Assembly: GCA_028276365.1 (NCBI GenBank)
Contig: JAPYWL010000027.1
Span: 1 to 16,790 of the forward strand
DNA: 16,790 nt
Origin: Deltaproteobacteria bacterium
GTDB lineage: Bacteria; DRYD01
Direction of reading: 5' to 3'
Part shown: in pieces, positions 2,126 through 15,027 of the stretch
Numbering within the stretch: position 1 is the stretch's first letter
Layout of the letters: each line of letters opens with the position of its first letter
Program-made: the position numbers and the translations under genes
The notes under the pieces: generated by a model
Told to the model about the DNA's origin: nothing
Database searches by the model: none
What the model saw: the letters and a program-made list of their open reading frames with translations, nothing else

Positions 2126-3280
2126 ATGCTTGATTTTTTAATTTTTACTACTTTAATTTTTTTATCTAATTTCTTTTATCTTCTTACTCCTTATAGAATG
2201 TATAACATAAGATTAACAGAAGCTTTTTATTTATATTCATTTGTCTCTTTTTTTTACCAAACTAATTTTTTTCTTTCTACTTTAGCTATTATATTTTCTA
2301 AATTGCTATTTTCTTTTATTGAATATAAAGATTTAAAAAATAAGCAAATCTATTTTTATCTATTATTTATTGAAAATATACCGATCTTTGTTCTCTTTAT
2401 TTTGTTTAAGTTGTTTTTTATTAAAACTAGTTCTCTTATTTTCTTACTTCCTCAAATATTAGTTTTTAACTTTATATTTTATTTAGTTAATTATTTACTT
2501 ATAGAGATTATTAATATGTTTTTTAACGTAAAATCCTTTATAGATGTTAGAAAGTTTATTTTATTTTTTAGTTTTAGAAATTTGATTATAAATTTAATAT
2601 TGAATTTAATATTATTTAAACTATTAATAGATTTGAAATTAGTTTTATGGAGTTATATTTGGTTAGTTGTTTTATTACCAATAGTTTTAATTGGTAAGAA
2701 TTATAATTGGTTGATAAATGCTGCGAAATTGACTATAGAGAATATTTCTAAGATAGTTGATAATAGGAATCCTTATGGGATTAATCATAGTTTAAAAGTA
2801 GCTGAATTAGCTAAAGAATTAAGTATAAAATTAAACTTAAATTATGAAGAAATAGATAAGATTTACCATGCTGCCAAGATAATGAATATAGGATATATAT
2901 CTATTCCTGAATATGTATTTTCAAAAAATAAACCTCTAAATGAAAACGAGAAAGAATTAATACAAAAGCATCCACTTATTGCTGCTAATATTTTAGAAAA
3001 ATTAAATTCATATTCTGAAATAGTATCTATTGTTAAGCATCATCATGAGAATTGGGATGGGTCTGGATATCCTGATAAACTTCAATCCAATCTTATACCT
3101 TTGGGTTCTAGAATTATTAGAATTTGTGATGTATTTGTTGCATTAATTAGTGATAGAGCTTATAGAAAAGCTTATTCAGTTCAAGAAGCTATTAATATTA
3201 TGAAAGAAAACCAAAATCAATTTGATCCTAATATATTACCCGTTTTTTTTGAACTTATAAAAGAAAAAAACATGTTATAA
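2126..3280 (+). CDS. Membrane protein with degenerate HD-GYP (cyclic-di-GMP phosphodiesterase-like) domain
   Basis: This is a 384-residue protein. Roughly residues 1-195 are strongly hydrophobic, with perhaps six membrane segments, and residues about 205-384 form a cytoplasmic HD-GYP domain. Active HD-GYP enzymes hydrolyse cyclic-di-GMP at a metal centre. Many landmarks are present: H221, H282, the H306-H307-E308 stretch, DGSGYP at 311-316 and D335. The defining HD pair is not. Where the family reads HDIGK, this protein reads M253-N254-I-G-Y257, so both metal/catalytic residues and the following Lys are replaced. The frame is intact and the rest is well kept, which argues for a maintained non-catalytic role such as ligand sensing rather than decay. 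It begins shortly after the CAT tRNA and lies 31 bp before the MFS gene, probably in one transcript. No clear Shine-Dalgarno is visible. Confidence 0.9.
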   Translation: MLDFLIFTTLIFLSNFFYLLTPYRMYNIRLTEAFYLYSFVSFFYQTNFFLSTLAIIFSKLLFSFIEYKDLKNKQIYFYLLFIENIPIFVLFILFKLFFIKTSSLIFLLPQILVFNFIFYLVNYLLIEIINMFFNVKSFIDVRKFILFFSFRNLIINLILNLILFKLLIDLKLVLWSYIWLVVLLPIVLIGKNYNWLINAAKLTIENISKIVDNRNPYGINHSLKVAELAKELSIKLNLNYEEIDKIYHAAKIMNIGYISIPEYVFSKNKPLNENEKELIQKHPLIAANILEKLNSYSEIVSIVKHHHENWDGSGYPDKLQSNLIPLGSRIIRICDVFVALISDRAYRKAYSVQEAINIMKENQNQFDPNILPVFFELIKEKNML

Positions 3281-3311: not shown

Positions 3312-4496
3312 ATGCTTAATTATTCAATAGCAAAGAATAATCTAAAAAAAAGAGATTTCATTTTAGGTTATCTTGTTATGATTTATTTTTCTTTTTTTTC
3401 TACTTTGTATCTTTATTTACCGCTAATTATTAAAAATTTAGGAGTTGATAATAGTTATATTGGTATCTTAGGGACTTTTTACTCTTTAGGTTCTGTATTA
3501 TCTGGTTTTTTGATATCTCCTAAAGTAGATAAATACAAAAAATATACTTCAATTTTTATAAGAATTGCTATTATTATACAGTCAATTTTAATTCTTTCTT
3601 TATTCTTTAACAATAATCTTTATTATTATATTTTCAGTTTATTATTAATCGGATTAACTGGTGCTTTTTATATTGGTACTTGTTTCTCTTTATCTAATAA
3701 TAGAGGTATAACTGTATCTATTTCTTCTATTGGTTTTTTAATTGGATATTTTCTTGGCTCTGTTATTAATAACTATAAAATTATGTTTATTCTTATATTT
3801 ATTTTGTATATCTTAGGTTTTATATTTTCTTTTCTAATTATATTAAAGAAAAATGAAATTACTAACAAAGGGGTTGAAAATTCAGATGATACTAATTCAT
3901 TAAAAGTTTTTGTTAAAAATATCAATATTTATTTACCATTAGTTTTTAGGCATAGCGGGGCTGCTATGATATGGTTATTCTTTACCTATATTTTACTTAA
4001 CCATTATCATATGGATTTAAAAGCTATAGGGATTTTAAATGCAATTAATATAATAGTTCAAACTTTTTCTAATCCTATTTTAGCTATATTTGCTTATAAA
4101 ATAAATAAAAGATTAGCTTCTTTTATATTGGTAAGCTTAGGATATTTTTTATCTTCTTTATATTTTTTACTTTTTTATTTTACAAAGGATTTTCATTTAT
4201 TGGTTCTATTACAGATAATCTTAGGGTTATCTTTTACCGCTTTATATTTAGGAAATATAGAAGCTCTTATACTAAATAATGAGAAAGAAAAAGTTACTGC
4301 TTTAAGTTTGCTATCTTCTATTATGTCACTATCTAATTTAATTGGTTCGTTTTTGGGAACAGTTACTTTTAAGTTTGGATATAAGTTTATGTTTTTTTTA
4401 GCTTTTGTTTTAGCTTTTTTAGCTTTCTCTTTTTATATATTAAGTAATTATAAAATTTTATTAGATTTTCTTAAATATAGGGAGGAGAAATTATGA
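3312..4496 (+). CDS. MFS transporter, substrate unknown
   Basis: This 394-residue, highly hydrophobic protein has about 12 membrane segments in two groups of six, separated by a charged cytoplasmic loop at about residues 179-203. That layout and length are typical of the major facilitator superfamily. After the second segment the stretch GFLISPKVDKYKKYTS (65-80) sits where MFS motif A (GxLaDrxGrr) belongs, but it is weakly conserved. No motif points to a substrate; drug, sugar or amino-acid export are all possible. Its stop codon overlaps the start of the cation exchanger gene in ATGA at 4493-4496, so the two are translationally coupled and may act on related ion or solute stress. The ribosome site upstream is weak (GTGGGA about 10 bases before the ATG). 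Confidence 0.85.
   Translation: MLNYSIAKNNLKKRDFILGYLVMIYFSFFSTLYLYLPLIIKNLGVDNSYIGILGTFYSLGSVLSGFLISPKVDKYKKYTSIFIRIAIIIQSILILSLFFNNNLYYYIFSLLLIGLTGAFYIGTCFSLSNNRGITVSISSIGFLIGYFLGSVINNYKIMFILIFILYILGFIFSFLIILKKNEITNKGVENSDDTNSLKVFVKNINIYLPLVFRHSGAAMIWLFFTYILLNHYHMDLKAIGILNAINIIVQTFSNPILAIFAYKINKRLASFILVSLGYFLSSLYFLLFYFTKDFHLLVLLQIILGLSFTALYLGNIEALILNNEKEKVTALSLLSSIMSLSNLIGSFLGTVTFKFGYKFMFFLAFVLAFLAFSFYILSNYKILLDFLKYREEKL
4480..4487 (+). promoter_or_regulatory. Strong Shine-Dalgarno for the cation exchanger gene
   Basis: GGGAGGAG lies 5 bases before the ATG at 4493, inside the 3' end of the MFS gene. It fixes the start at the ATGA overlap and shows that this start is read by direct ribosome recruitment as well as by coupling. 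Confidence 0.8.
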
Positions 4497-9523: not shown

Positions 9524-9991
9524 ATGAAAAAAAGAAAAAAAGGGTTTACATTAATAGAATTGATGATCGTTATAGCTATTATAGCAATATTAGCAGCAGT
9601 ATTGGTACCTAACTTTATGAGAGCAAGAGAAGCATCCAGATTAACCGCTTGTAAATCTAACCTAAAAAATATATCTACTGCAGTTGAAACCTATTCTAAC
9701 GACAACGATGGCATATATCCTGGAGATACTAACTTTAAAGAAATTAAGAGTGGCGAAACTTTGGGAATAGGTACATTAGCTAGTACCTATATTGGGAAAA
9801 CTCTCAATTGTCCAGCAGCAGCAAAGCCTTACACATATAGATTAGCTACTGCTTCAGGAGCAGGATACTGGATATATTGTCCAGCAGCTCCCGGTAGTGG
9901 GGCTAGTGGTGTTTCTAGAAAGCATCGTAAGAATAATAATGATGGTGGCCCAATTTTTGATTCCGCAACTGGTATTCAAGAAAAATTTTAA
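9524..9991 (+). CDS. Type IV pilin-like preprotein, probably the major subunit
   Basis: This 155-residue preprotein has a short basic leader (MKKRKKG) cut before F8 by prepilin peptidase. The mature N-terminus FTLIELMIVIAIIAILAA carries the Glu at mature position 5 and the hydrophobic spine that packs into a pilus or pseudopilus. A globular part of about 110 residues follows, with three cysteines (C43, C96, C119) and a K133-H134 pair. Similar tri-Cys proteins (ACKSNLKNI at the first Cys) occur, from memory, in several uncultured diderm phyla. The near-consensus ribosome site and its own terminator point to strong expression. Base composition also stands out: 9841-9900 is 50% G+C by count, while 10621-10680 is 10%. 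No pilus assembly ATPase or peptidase gene is in the window, so pilus versus secretion pseudopilus is open. Confidence 0.93.
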   Translation: MKKRKKGFTLIELMIVIAIIAILAAVLVPNFMRAREASRLTACKSNLKNISTAVETYSNDNDGIYPGDTNFKEIKSGETLGIGTLASTYIGKTLNCPAAAKPYTYRLATASGAGYWIYCPAAPGSGASGVSRKHRKNNNDGGPIFDSATGIQEKF

Positions 9992-10092: not shown

Positions 10093-10533
10093 ATGAGTGA
10101 AAAAAATAATGTAAAAAATAAAAGAGGTTTTACTTTATTAGAATTAATGATAGTAATCGCTATAATATCTATATTAGTGATGGTTTTGATCCCTAATTTT
10201 GTGGGAGCTAGAAATGCTGCTAAGTTAACAAGTTGTAAATCTATAATAAAAAATATTTCAATAGTTCTAGAGATTTATTCTCAAGATAATGGTGGAGTTT
10301 ATCCAAATGTTGATATTGCTGAAATAAAAATGTCAGGTAATCCTTTAGCTGCTTATATTGGTAAAGAATATAAGTGTCCTGTAGCTAATAAATACTATGA
10401 ATATAAAGAAAATAGTTCTAACTACTATATTTATTGTCCTACTTATAGTACTTCTTTGAAGCATAAAAATAGAACAACTATAATAACAAAGCTTGCTTTT
10501 TCTCCTAAAGAAGGGTTTATTACTCAATATTAA
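10093..10533 (+). CDS. Type IV pilin-like preprotein, diverged paralogue of the upstream pilin
   Basis: This 146-residue protein has the prepilin cleavage site KRG^FTLLE (cut after G12, Glu at mature position 5). It then follows the upstream pilin closely: SCKSIIKNIS versus ACKSNLKNIS, YSQDNGGVYP versus YSNDNDGIYP, YIGKEYKCP versus YIGKTLNCP, and IYCP in both. The three cysteines (C48, C95, C115) and a K123-H124 pair are retained. The two genes look like a tandem duplication. This copy has ordinary AT-rich codon use and only a weak ribosome site (AAAAGG), and it lies beyond the terminator, so it is probably a minor subunit. There is no terminator before the YfhO-family gene 41 bp downstream, which suggests co-transcription. 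The leader is longer than in the first copy. Confidence 0.92.
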   Translation: MSEKNNVKNKRGFTLLELMIVIAIISILVMVLIPNFVGARNAAKLTSCKSIIKNISIVLEIYSQDNGGVYPNVDIAEIKMSGNPLAAYIGKEYKCPVANKYYEYKENSSNYYIYCPTYSTSLKHKNRTTIITKLAFSPKEGFITQY

Positions 10534-10574: not shown

Positions 10575-13500
10575 ATGTTTACAAGTAGTAGGAAAATAGA
10601 AGAGATATTTTTTTACTTATTCTTTATAATAATTCCTTTTATATTTTTTATTTATTTTTTATATAGTAATAAATTGATAGGTTTTATAGACGCTTCTAAT
10701 CAATTTTTTCCATATAGGTATTTTTTAGCTAATAGTGTATTAAAAGGAGATTTACCGTTATGGTGGCCATATACAGCTTTGGGTTATCCATTTATTGAAA
10801 CTCTTCAATCTGCAGTGTTCTATCCATTAAATTACTTATTTGTATTTTTATATAAAAGTAATCCATTCTTAGCTTATAATTTAGGAATAATATTTCATAT
10901 AATATTATTACTTATAGTAAGCTATAGGTATTATCTATTTTTATTGGGAAATAGATATGTATCTTTCATAAGTAGTATATTATTTTCTTTAGGAGGTACG
11001 GCAGTAATATATAGTGATTATGCTAATTTCCATGCCTCAATTATATATTTACTATTGTGTTTATATAACCTACATTTAATTATATATAAATTGAAAAATA
11101 AGAAAGATATAAAAATAAATATACTTATATATAGTTTATCATTTGGATTATTAGTACTAGTGGGACATCCAAATATGATAGTTTATACCTTATTATATTC
11201 ATTTATATATGTTTTAGGAGTTTTATTTATAGAAAAAGAATTATTTTTTAAAGTATTATTTTATTGGTTAATATCTTTATTTTTATCTTTTTTAATATGG
11301 GGACTACAATTTGTAATATTTAAGGAATATGATAGTGTAAGAAAATTAATTGCTAAAGAGGCTTTTAATTTAGGTTCTTATGATTTAAACCTTTTTTTAT
11401 CTTATTTATTACCTTTTATTTATAAAAAAAACTATATAATATATTTATCTACAGAAAGCAGCACTTTATATTTTGAAATTATTCATTATATATTTGTTTT
11501 ATCAATATTTAGTTTAATTTATTTTTATTATAGTTTTTTTGAAAATATAAAAGAAAAAAAGAATTACTACAATAAGTATGTATATATTCTAATTTTGTCT
11601 ATATTATCTTTTTTATTATCATTAGGTAAATATACGATATTTCATTATATAGCTATGTTTTTCCCAGGATATGCTGATGTTAGATTACATTGGAGAAACT
11701 TAATTTTATTTGATTTTACATTAGCATTTTCCTTAGGATTTATGCTAAAAGATTTACTTTTTAATCCTAAATACTTTGTAAACATTTTAAAGAAAGTTTT
11801 AAAAATATTTTTGTTTTTTATTGTAGGCATTGTTTTGCTATCTTTTATTTTTGTTTATTTTACATATCAAGAAAATTTAGTAAATCTTTTTGATTTTAAT
11901 TATAAATATTTATTAAATAATTTACCTTTTATAATAATAAGCATTTTATTCTGTATTTTAGGTTTAGTTATTTTGAAAAATAGAAAAATTTTTAAAAGAT
12001 ACTTTTATTTAGTTTTAGGAATTTTGGTAATGTTAATCTTAACAAATAACATTTTTTATTATTATACTATTTATAAAGAACAACCTGGTAAGAGTACTAC
12101 TATTAATTTTTCAAATTATTTATTTTTTTATAACAACATAGCTAATAATATAAAAGAAAATAGTAATTTTTGGATAGCTTTCAAGCATTTAAAAAATAAC
12201 ATAGTTCAGCCTGCAAATATAAATAATATAGCAATTAATAGTAATAAAATATTTTTTGATTATTATGATCCTTTTTTATCTTTTGAAAAATGGTATTTAT
12301 TAGAGAAAAATCTAAGTAATATATTTTTTCTCCATAGATTTAATTATATTTTGTCATTATTTGGTTTTAAATATTTATTTCATTATAATTCATTTTATTC
12401 AGATTTTGATAAAATCGTTATTAATGATTTATATAATATAAAGAGTATTGAAATAAATAAATATAAGCTAAATAATATTTTTATGGTACCTGTATATAAA
12501 AAAAATTCAAAAAATGAATTAATAGAACAAGCTCAAATAAATAATAATAGAATAACTTTATCAAATGATAACCCAATTATTTTCTATTTACCTTATTTTA
12601 AAGAATATAATAACTTATGTTTAGGATTGAAGATAAAAAAAACAAAAAAAGAAAATAATTTTAATAAATTTTATAGCTCTTTAATAGATATACCCAATGA
12701 TATTTATTTAGCTATAGAAAGAAAGGATAATAATTTAATTGGCTTAGGAAATTTTTATACATTTTTTGTTCCATATGAAGAATATAGATATATAATGATT
12801 CCATTTAGTTTAGTTGGATTGACTATTCTTAAGCACAATTTAGATAATTTTATTTACACTTTTAATAATCAAAAATTTCTAAGATTTGCTATTGGTAGTA
12901 ATTCTATCATTGAATATGAAATAGAAGGAATAGATATTTATTATTACCCAGATTATTATAATCCAGGAGTTTATGATAATAAAGAATACTTAACTTATGA
13001 GAAAATAGTAACTAATAGAATACCTTTAGCTTCAGGAAGAGCATTTGAGACTTTTATATATAAAAATAATAACTCAATGGAAATAATAGATAGTGTAGTA
13101 AAATTGGGAATAAGCAAAGATATATTTGAACTAAAAAAAGACATATTATTAGTTAATTTTAATTTTAAGGAAGAAGCAAAAATATATCCCGAATACATTC
13201 AAAAATTAAAAGAATATTCAAATATAAATAAACTAAAATATCAAAACAATTATGCTAACATAACACAAAATAATATAAGTAATTTAAACTTTGTAAGATC
13301 AAAAATAACTGATAAAGAAATATTTAAAAAAAATAATGAAATAAGTTTTAAAGTAAAAAGTGAGGGAGATAGTTTTATTGTAATTAATCACTCTTATTAT
13401 AAATATTGGAAAGGATATATAGATAATATAGAGGTACCTGTATTAAAAGTAAATGGTATAGTAATGGGGATAATAGTACCTAAAGGTGAGCATAAAGTAG

Positions 13501-13604
13501 TATTAAAATATGAACCTTGGTATGCTAGATTCTTTTTTGTTCCTTTTTTTGTAATTACTATTTATTTCATTATTATAATGATATTACTAAATCGTAAAAA
13601 TTAA
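10575..13604 (+). CDS. YfhO-family large membrane protein (GT-C-like)
   Basis: This 1009-residue protein has about 12 or more membrane segments in residues 10-510, a long hydrophilic region (about 520-980) and a final membrane anchor. The first outer loop has the family signature: IDASNQFFPYR with D39 and Q43, then GDLPLWWPYTALGYPF, then the AVFYPLNYLF stretch. D39 is where GT-C enzymes keep their catalytic Asp. The C-terminus (HSYYKYWKGYIDNIEVPV, then VPKGEHKVVLKYEPW) is the typical YfhO ending. In Gram-positives YfhO is linked to glycosylation of teichoic acids; other members are uncharacterised. I infer transfer of a polyprenyl-phosphate sugar to a surface polymer or protein. Its place 41 bp after a pilin gene makes pilin glycosylation an idea to test. 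No Shine-Dalgarno is seen, but only this ATG precedes the conserved N-terminus. Confidence 0.88.
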   Translation: MFTSSRKIEEIFFYLFFIIIPFIFFIYFLYSNKLIGFIDASNQFFPYRYFLANSVLKGDLPLWWPYTALGYPFIETLQSAVFYPLNYLFVFLYKSNPFLAYNLGIIFHIILLLIVSYRYYLFLLGNRYVSFISSILFSLGGTAVIYSDYANFHASIIYLLLCLYNLHLIIYKLKNKKDIKINILIYSLSFGLLVLVGHPNMIVYTLLYSFIYVLGVLFIEKELFFKVLFYWLISLFLSFLIWGLQFVIFKEYDSVRKLIAKEAFNLGSYDLNLFLSYLLPFIYKKNYIIYLSTESSTLYFEIIHYIFVLSIFSLIYFYYSFFENIKEKKNYYNKYVYILILSILSFLLSLGKYTIFHYIAMFFPGYADVRLHWRNLILFDFTLAFSLGFMLKDLLFNPKYFVNILKKVLKIFLFFIVGIVLLSFIFVYFTYQENLVNLFDFNYKYLLNNLPFIIISILFCILGLVILKNRKIFKRYFYLVLGILVMLILTNNIFYYYTIYKEQPGKSTTINFSNYLFFYNNIANNIKENSNFWIAFKHLKNNIVQPANINNIAINSNKIFFDYYDPFLSFEKWYLLEKNLSNIFFLHRFNYILSLFGFKYLFHYNSFYSDFDKIVINDLYNIKSIEINKYKLNNIFMVPVYKKNSKNELIEQAQINNNRITLSNDNPIIFYLPYFKEYNNLCLGLKIKKTKKENNFNKFYSSLIDIPNDIYLAIERKDNNLIGLGNFYTFFVPYEEYRYIMIPFSLVGLTILKHNLDNFIYTFNNQKFLRFAIGSNSIIEYEIEGIDIYYYPDYYNPGVYDNKEYLTYEKIVTNRIPLASGRAFETFIYKNNNSMEIIDSVVKLGISKDIFELKKDILLVNFNFKEEAKIYPEYIQKLKEYSNINKLKYQNNYANITQNNISNLNFVRSKITDKEIFKKNNEISFKVKSEGDSFIVINHSYYKYWKGYIDNIEVPVLKVNGIVMGIIVPKGEHKVVLKYEPWYARFFFVPFFVITIYFIIIMILLNRKN

Positions 13605-13743
13605 TTATAATTTTATACTTTTTTTACTCATTTGGAATTCTATAGGATTATTTTAAATTTTTTTTAAATAAATAATAGAAAAAGTAATTAAAAATTTTAA
13701 AGTTTATTAAATTTTATTTAGAATTCTAATTTATAATAAAGTG
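13605..13743 (+). other. AT-rich spacer with palindrome TTAGAATTCTAA and repeated GAATTCTA
   Basis: No gene is seen here. GAATTCTA occurs at 13635-13642 and again at 13721-13728; the second copy is the core of a perfect 12-bp palindrome (13718-13729), 14 bp before the GNAT-like start. This could be an operator or chance. No convincing terminator for the YfhO-family gene is visible. Confidence 0.4.
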
Positions 13744-15027
13744 ATGAAAAAAATTAAAGAGATTTTTAACGAATTAGAACAAGGAAATTTTATAAGAATA
13801 GGTAATTTAAAAGATATAGTAGATTTTGATATTCCTGAATTAATTCTAAATTTTAAAATAAGGAAAGCTAATATTCAAGACAAAAATTATATTAAAAATC
13901 TATATAAAGAAGTTTATGGATATAATTATTCCTTACCTGAAGTAACTGATGAGGATTTATTAAATGAAATCCTACTAAATCCTGAAAATATATGGTTATT
14001 AGTGTATGATAATGAAAATAAAATCTGTGGATCTTTATTATTTAGGATCGATAAAAAGAATCTACTAGCTAAAGCTTTAGCAGCGGTCGTAAAAGAAAAA
14101 TATAGAAATAACAAAATATTTGAATTACTATTTCATTTGGGATTTAATTATTCTATTCTTAAAGCAGAAGCAGTATATGCTTTAGCTAGAACCATAACAA
14201 TAGGTCCTCAAAAAGTACTTTTTAAAAATAATTTCATACCTGCTGGAATATTCCCTAATGTCAGAAGAGTATTAACTTATGAAAATCACGCATTGTTTAT
14301 ATACTTAACCCAAAAAGGACTTAAAAAACGTGAAAAGATAACCAAAATGAACATACTTGTTAATGAAATATACCAAATCCTACAAAAATATTTAATCAGA
14401 TTAATCTATAAAGAAAATAAATTAAATTTAAATGCTTCTGAATTTTTTAAAGAAAAATATCAAAAAGTACTAATCCAAAAACTAAATTTTAAACCTATTA
14501 TTTTGGATAATATAAATATAATAATAGATAATGTTGAAAAAGAATATAATGAAAAACTTAATAAATTAAGATTTAAATTTATGCCGTTTCATAAACCAAA
14601 TTTTAAAATAAAAACATCACTTGGCTCTATTTTTTTACATTTTAATTATATAGATAAACACTGTGCTATAATGGGATTAGAAGTAGAAGATGACTTGGAA
14701 AAAATCTATAACATTTTTTATAATATCCCATTTATAGTAGATAAATTAGATGCTAGATATTTAGAAGTCTTATCAAAAGCTGAAAATTATTTTTATCATA
14801 ATATACTAATAGACATAGGATTTATACCGTGCGCTTATTTCCCAATTATGCTAAAAGAAAATAATAAAAGAAAAGATGTAGCAGCATTCTTTTACCCCTT
14901 TAATTTCCCCAATCTAAAAAATATGATAGTACCTGATATATTTAAAGAATACCTAAAAGTAATATACTCATTTTTAGTAAATAAATTACAAGAAGAAATA
15001 GAATTAATAGAAACTTTTAAAATATAA
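13744..15027 (+). CDS. Two-part GNAT-like acetyltransferase family protein
   Basis: This protein of about 427 residues has an N-terminal GNAT domain (about 38-185), beginning FKIRKANIQDKNYIKNLY, with the central strand ICGSLLFRI. The acetyl-CoA loop, usually R/QxxGxG/A, reads YRNNKIFELL and lacks both glycines, so binding or activity may be altered. The second half (about 285-390) ends in a block like that closing the first: GFIPCAYFPI (near 360) echoes NFIPAGIFPN (near 165). This suggests an internal duplication with two GNAT-like folds. The substrate is unknown. ATG 13744 is chosen over the GTG directly before it at 13741; neither has a ribosome site. The gene ends 4 bp from the stop of the convergent uppP gene, so the two 3' ends probably overlap in RNA. 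Confidence 0.72.
   Translation: MKKIKEIFNELEQGNFIRIGNLKDIVDFDIPELILNFKIRKANIQDKNYIKNLYKEVYGYNYSLPEVTDEDLLNEILLNPENIWLLVYDNENKICGSLLFRIDKKNLLAKALAAVVKEKYRNNKIFELLFHLGFNYSILKAEAVYALARTITIGPQKVLFKNNFIPAGIFPNVRRVLTYENHALFIYLTQKGLKKREKITKMNILVNEIYQILQKYLIRLIYKENKLNLNASEFFKEKYQKVLIQKLNFKPIILDNINIIIDNVEKEYNEKLNKLRFKFMPFHKPNFKIKTSLGSIFLHFNYIDKHCAIMGLEVEDDLEKIYNIFYNIPFIVDKLDARYLEVLSKAENYFYHNILIDIGFIPCAYFPIMLKENNKRKDVAAFFYPFNFPNLKNMIVPDIFKEYLKVIYSFLVNKLQEEIELIETFKI

Follow-up and report, generated by a model that had tools for sequence, protein, structure and literature searches.

A membrane-anchored HD-GYP protein without its HD pair: a candidate cyclic dinucleotide receptor retained across a bacterial phylum

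Introduction

What role is left for an HD-GYP protein once its HD pair is gone? The question is raised by a gene in the window, the whole stretch of 16,790 nucleotides that was analyzed from a Deltaproteobacteria bacterium (contig JAPYWL010000027.1). Positions 2126-3280 of the forward strand hold an uninterrupted frame for 384 amino acids, a multi-pass membrane part followed by an HD-GYP domain, with the coordinates that the original prediction had given for an open frame. That prediction regarded the protein as a membrane-anchored receptor and not an enzyme. The active site, the orthologs, known degenerate proteins, the membrane domain, and the gene neighborhood all bear on this reading.

The gene and its domains

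The gene can be divided as follows:

2126..3280 (+): whole gene, membrane domain plus an HD-GYP domain that is probably catalytically dead; open frame, orthologs in 6/7 genomes of the phylum
2126..2701 (+): multi-pass membrane domain, residues 1-192, from hydropathy and AlphaFold2 helices; fold tentatively like an ECF S-component (RibU)
2642..2764 (+): continuous stalk-like helix, residues 173-213, running from the membrane domain to the HD-GYP domain, from AlphaFold2 secondary structure
2744..3235 (+): HD-GYP domain, residues 207-370; Pfam HD_5, with DvhD, PmGH, and PA4781 as top structure matches

Residues 207-370 match Pfam HD_5 at 4e-41 (141 bits against a curated cut-off of 27.2) and cover positions 3-170 of the 170 in the profile. 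The AlphaFold2 model of the whole protein has a pLDDT of 86.6. Its best structural match is DvhD (Z 25.1, rmsd 3.6, 198 residues), followed by PmGH and PA4781.

Lost and retained residues of the active site

PmGH of Persephonella marina (4mcw), whose active site holds three irons, hydrolyzes c-di-GMP as a phosphodiesterase (PMC4159591). It shares with the window protein the HD-GYP fold, the GYP side, the histidine cluster, and the substrate contacts. Alignment of the two gives these positions:

2768..2770 (+): N215, replacing the aspartate PmGH D183; N in five orthologs and T in one (n=6)
2786..2788 (+): H221, retained metal ligand (PmGH H189); 6/6 orthologs
2882..2896 (+): M253-N254-I255-G256-Y257, replacing HDxGK; N254, I255, G256, and Y257 invariant, M or Q at 253 (n=6 orthologs)
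2969..2971 (+): H282, retained metal ligand (PmGH H250); 6/6 orthologs
3041..3046 (+): H306-H307, retained metal ligands (PmGH H276/H277); 6/6 orthologs
3056..3073 (+): D311-GSGYP316, retained GYP motif; D311, G312, G314, Y315, and P316 in 6/6 orthologs
3128..3130 (+): D335, retained metal ligand (PmGH D305); 6/6 orthologs
3137..3139 (+): V338, replacing PmGH D308; V, I, L, or G in orthologs, D in 90% of HD-bearing homologs
3155..3166 (+): R344, Y346, and R347, retained c-di-GMP-contacting positions (PmGH R314/K317, DvhD R650/Y652); 6/6 orthologs

The MNIGY at 253-257 and the kept H221, H282, H306, H307, D335, and DGSGYP are present in the translation as predicted, and the spacing, said to be like that of active proteins, is the same as in PmGH. 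In this alignment PmGH H221/D222 fall on M253/N254, and H189, H250, H276/H277, and D305 fall on H221, H282, H306/H307, and D335. The PmGH residues D183, E185, H221, D222, K225, and D308 become N, Y, M, N, Y, and V, although a tyrosine at the E185 position is found in many active HD-GYPs as well. The earlier statement that one metal position is lost is thus right about the HD pair but too mild, since the equivalents of D183, K225, and D308 (N215, Y257, and V338) are also gone. Read from the sequence, the site keeps its GYP side, whereas its HD side is lost together with D183/K225, which has been proposed as an acid pair.

The same division appears when 134 distinct HD-bearing homologs are compared with the six orthologs. 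There are 32 columns that are at least 85% conserved in the HD-bearing homologs. Six of these are lost in every ortholog, namely 215 (D183), 218, 253 (H221), 254 (D222), 257 (K225), and 338 (D308). The 26 that are kept include the equivalents of PmGH H189, H250, H276, H277, D305, Y285, and R314. Column 215 is D in 92% of the HD-bearing homologs that have a residue there. Replacing H221, D222, D183, K225, or D308 with alanine abolishes PmGH activity, whereas mutation of G284, Y285, P286, I294, R314, or K317, in the GYP motif and among the nucleotide-contacting residues, does not (PMC4159591). Five of the six lost columns therefore fall on positions at which alanine inactivates PmGH; the chance of at least five such columns among six is about 0.003-0.006, with nine or ten PmGH activity residues counted among the 32 columns. 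The D308 column alone is not decisive, because VCA0681 is active without D308.

The comparison table has 134 other distinct HD-GYP domains and every one of them carries HD (134/134), so the HD-less state of the six orthologs is far from chance. Many of the outside homologs were chosen by the pattern [KR][SH]HHE[SNR]WD, and the conservation table is thereby biased at columns 304-311; columns 215, 253-257, and 338 are unaffected. Two proteins were left out of the table. One is an isolated HD-GYP protein from a Thermoleophilia MAG (L123, ORF stretch from 6948), which has LSDVGK instead of LHDVGK and is the sole other full homolog in the comparison that is missing the HD histidine. The other is a tandem HD-GYP protein (L139, G005 C119 9000-11500) that was matched as its first half, cut off from the rest. 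This half is degenerate (ECLDEHWDGRGSP), in an arrangement like that of V-cGAP3.

Orthologs, selection, and descent

An ortholog was found in six of the seven genomes examined for the phylum, and the seventh genome is just 71% complete. The six represent three genera of this single phylum. The same-genus ortholog (78% identity) and three same-family orthologs (38-39%) read AKIMNIGY, AKIMNIGYISIPEY. The same-order ortholog (34%) reads AKLQNIGY, AKLQNIGYVVIREG. Histidine at 253 occurs in 0/6. It had been proposed that homologs be aligned to see if Met-Asn is kept: N254 is present in 6/6, with M or Q before it. Close relatives carrying HD would have counted against the original prediction, and all six orthologs are HD-less.

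Between the two congeneric genomes, the dN/dS of the HD-GYP domain is 0.068. Five pairs of catalytically intact HD-GYP paralogs from the same two genomes have values of 0.023-0.082. Purifying selection acts on the HD-less domain much as it does on its intact paralogs.

These data bear on the possibility that the gene is decaying or is a sequencing artefact. Nothing beyond the missing motif speaks for it. The same state in six independent assemblies, the dN/dS, and the open frame speak against it, and this explanation was rejected as having next to no probability. The six HD-less orthologs and the dN/dS show that the gene is not a single decaying allele, in line with the earlier remark that the loss came without general decay.

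A quick tree built from 142 domains groups the six orthologs in one clade (SH-aLRT 98). DvhD is placed far from this clade on a branch of 1.5 with weak deep support, and its long branch makes its position unsure. HDIGK is kept in those further HD-GYP domains of the genome that were read, a set that leaves out one short match on contig C100 whose frame is interrupted. One paralog in the same genome (L036, G000 C58 7000-13000, domain at about 3974-4492) keeps HDIGK and has lost GYP (KYHHLYPNI--EN), and is a mirror image of the window protein. Further members were sought beyond the phylum with the pattern K[IL][MQ]NIGY[IV]. Among the matches listed (80 loci), only the already known same-order genome was found.

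Comparison with degenerate HD-GYP proteins

The nearest known system is DvhD (DVU1020) of Desulfovibrio vulgaris (PDB 9rbz/9rc0). It binds c-di-GMP and does not hydrolyze it, and binding splays the stalk helices that lead to the membrane (PMC13090378). Both proteins are membrane-anchored, lack the HD pair, and have lost the equivalent of D308 (C644 in DvhD). Six of the eight residues of the canonical DvhD site are identical in the window protein: Y523, L577, K582, Y621, R650, and Y652 correspond to Y217, L271, K276, Y315, R344, and Y346. The position of K582 is K within the genus only and K, M, or W across the orthologs. Y315 also corresponds to PmGH Y285, and the tyrosines of both known proteins contact a c-di-GMP phosphate (PMC13090378, PMC4159591). 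Of the remaining two residues, L340 for M646 is conservative, and N362 differs from E668, which reads guanine in DvhD (PMC13090378).

In other respects the two are nearly complementary. DvhD has SQ in place of HD, keeps the HDxGK lysine (K563), has lost HH (MN) and D305 (N641), and binds without metal. The window protein lacks this lysine but has HH and D335, both of which are invariant. Since its histidine cluster is kept, unlike that of DvhD, the window protein may still bind metal. DvhD carries dCache and PAS domains, where the window protein has a multi-pass membrane domain instead.

Other proteins can be compared by description only. PA2572 of Pseudomonas aeruginosa (YN-GYP) also has N for the HD aspartate and keeps GYP, and it is reported to be c-di-GMP-inactive (PMC3774798); the residue before this N is tyrosine in PA2572 and methionine in the window protein. 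VC1087 and VCA0895 of Vibrio cholerae, ECA3548 of Pectobacterium, and NosR of Burkholderia, likewise compared by description, do not have an intact HD motif, and their domain architectures differ from that of the window protein. VC1087 and VCA0895 are inactive, and the ECA3548/NosR group is inactive or predicted to be so (PMC4212101, PMC12570481). Bd1817, another degenerate HD-GYP protein, did not bind c-di-GMP in vitro (PMC3774798). Together with DvhD, these show that degenerate HD-GYP proteins are already known. What appears to be new is a phylum-wide lineage with its own residue pattern, apparently separate from DvhD.

The membrane domain

The membrane domain alone matches no Pfam family. 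Its predicted fold tentatively resembles an ECF S-component. In the full model, residues 1-171 match RibU with Z 10.3 over 149 residues, and VIA-align of two models of the membrane part gives RibU at Z of about 10 over 147-157 residues, although values below 13 can arise by chance for helical bundles. When the N-terminal part was modeled alone, the five best matches were all to RibU and ThiT (Z 10.0 to 6.3), ahead of the next at 6.0. This model has a pLDDT of 54, and the likeness is only tentative for that reason. Transport by an ECF module is unlikely, since PF02361 (EcfT/CbiQ) was found in 0/7 genomes of the phylum (71-90% complete) and in 10/14 controls.

Folds of the S-component type also occur in receptors (PMC11109136). 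The LytS-type 5TMR receptors described there have a six-helix S-component-like membrane domain fused to a cytoplasmic signaling domain, as predicted models tentatively suggest for the window protein; the membrane domain of the latter differs in having no Pfam match. HD-GYP is not mentioned in the text of PMC11109136. The membrane part evolves faster than the HD-GYP domain (dN/dS about 0.18 against about 0.07) and has few invariant residues.

Gene neighborhood

A glycosyltransferase gene precedes the gene in the window genus, and the congener has a methyltransferase gene between the two. MFS, Na/Ca exchanger-type, and LptF/LptG genes follow. The MFS transporter gene begins 31 bp after the gene in the window and overlaps it in the congener; this adjacency did not suggest a function. 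A scan for sigma-70 promoters and terminators gave no more than chance.

In three genomes of the sister genus, the gene comes first in a compact cluster, ahead of genes for an ABC_sub_bind protein, a GGDEF cyclase, and a TonB-plug protein:

L032 4559-9921: HD-less HD-GYP, ABC_sub_bind, GGDEF, TonB-plug
L033 3314-8756: the same genes
L034 2297-7738: the same genes

The cyclase has an intact GGEEF motif and an RNTD that is like an I-site. The cluster looks like a sensing and signaling unit around an outer-membrane receptor. The GGDEF and ABC_sub_bind orthologs are located elsewhere in the window genome and its congener, and the neighborhood is different in the same-order relative. A conserved operon was rejected as a clue to a partner, because the GGDEF cluster occurs in the sister genus only and is dispersed in the window genus.

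Other genes in these regions were recorded. The window contains two consecutive pseudopilin-like genes (9524-9991 and 10093-10533), the first of which matches the type IV pilin N-methylation motif. They are followed by genes for a 1009-aa protein (10575-13604) and a 428-aa protein (13741-15027), both without a Pfam match; the N-terminal half of the latter is acetyltransferase-like by eye. At L035 5557-6069, a 170-aa ORF that matches only the first 38 positions of the GGDEF profile has a serine hydroxymethyltransferase gene on one side and, on the other, a large gene resembling DNA polymerase III alpha.

Discussion

The preferred reading, held with slightly better than even confidence, is that the protein is a catalytically dead, membrane-anchored receptor of c-di-GMP or a related cyclic dinucleotide. 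Its parts are of different strength. The sequence state, its conservation and age, the purifying selection, and the single clade of the orthologs are shown by the data. The PmGH mutants and the natural HD-less proteins argue strongly for catalytic inactivity. The ligand, the metal, and the direction of signaling can be proposed only tentatively. The HD-GYP domain has given up residues needed for hydrolysis, which comprise the HD pair together with D183/K225 and D308. Its fold and GYP loop are retained, as are most of the residues that contact the nucleotide and the histidines clustered next to GYP. A cyclic dinucleotide such as c-di-GMP would most likely be bound uncut, perhaps with one metal. 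Judging from the homologous site, H282, H306, and H307 would hold this metal on the GYP side. There is a parallel in PmGH, where a subunit with only the GYP-side iron was crystallized with uncut c-di-GMP (PMC4159591). The bound or unbound state would be relayed through helix 173-213 to or from the membrane domain of six to seven helices, like the stalk of DvhD.

The signal c-di-GMP itself is expected to be present, given the GGDEF cyclases, PilZ proteins, and EAL protein of the seven genomes. Some points weigh against this reading: N362 stands where DvhD has E668, and the K582 position varies among the orthologs. Bd1817 illustrates that lost catalysis does not imply retained binding, and the nucleotide contacts are kept in active enzymes too and are not specific evidence for a receptor. 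The conserved HD-less state, the purifying selection, and the DvhD precedent nonetheless support the original prediction of a receptor as an inference.

The dead domain could instead act without a nucleotide, using its GYP loop to touch another signaling protein such as a GGDEF diguanylate cyclase. This is considered unlikely, but the sister-genus cluster, in which the gene comes first ahead of an intact cyclase in three genomes, keeps it alive. The literature offers precedents in RpfG with GGDEF proteins, in the HD-less ECA3548 with possible direct contacts, and in a hypothesis for NosR. However, the linkage is not kept in the window genome, its congener, or the same-order relative, and a pure contact role would not require invariant nucleotide-contacting and histidine positions. 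The invariant histidines in a dead enzyme could also reflect residual metal chemistry. An enzyme with altered chemistry, in which one metal at H282/H306/H307 together with N254 and Y257 hydrolyzes a phosphate ester or nucleotide (pGpG or another cyclic nucleotide), would explain why none of the remaining metal ligands varies among the six orthologs and why N254 and Y257 are invariant as though functional; DvhD, by contrast, is additionally without the HH pair and D305. Such an enzyme is improbable given that PmGH is inactivated by an alanine at H221, D222, D183, K225, or D308 and that the natural HD-less proteins VC1087, VCA0895, PA2572, and DvhD are inactive.

A still more doubtful alternative makes the protein primarily a small-molecule sensor, with an external ligand taken by the S-component-like membrane domain and the dead HD-GYP as a dimerization or docking module. 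Both models of the membrane part do match ECF S-components best (RibU Z of about 10, ThiT 6.3), above unrelated proteins, and with EcfT/CbiQ in none of the seven genomes and S-component folds known from receptors, a sensor would fit better than a transporter. Yet it is the membrane domain that evolves faster, has few invariant residues, and yields the low-pLDDT model, and no ligand is suggested. A bolder form of the receptor reading, to which a low probability is given, combines several of these elements. It would be a separately arisen class of metal-dependent c-di-GMP receptor, in which the GYP-side metal holds the nucleotide uncut and the S-component-like domain couples an external small molecule, a two-input switch fixed across an uncultured phylum.

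Receptors of c-di-GMP are well known among degenerate GGDEF and EAL domains. For a degenerate HD-GYP receptor, the literature compared here holds mainly one solved case, DvhD (2026). The residues N/T215, M/Q253, N254, and Y257, together with the absence of D338, provide a signature with which further members can be found. A second, apparently separate lineage, in which other residues are lost and kept than in DvhD, shows where an HD-GYP site may serve binding and where cutting. The window protein would be a receptor that, unlike DvhD, possibly still carries a metal.
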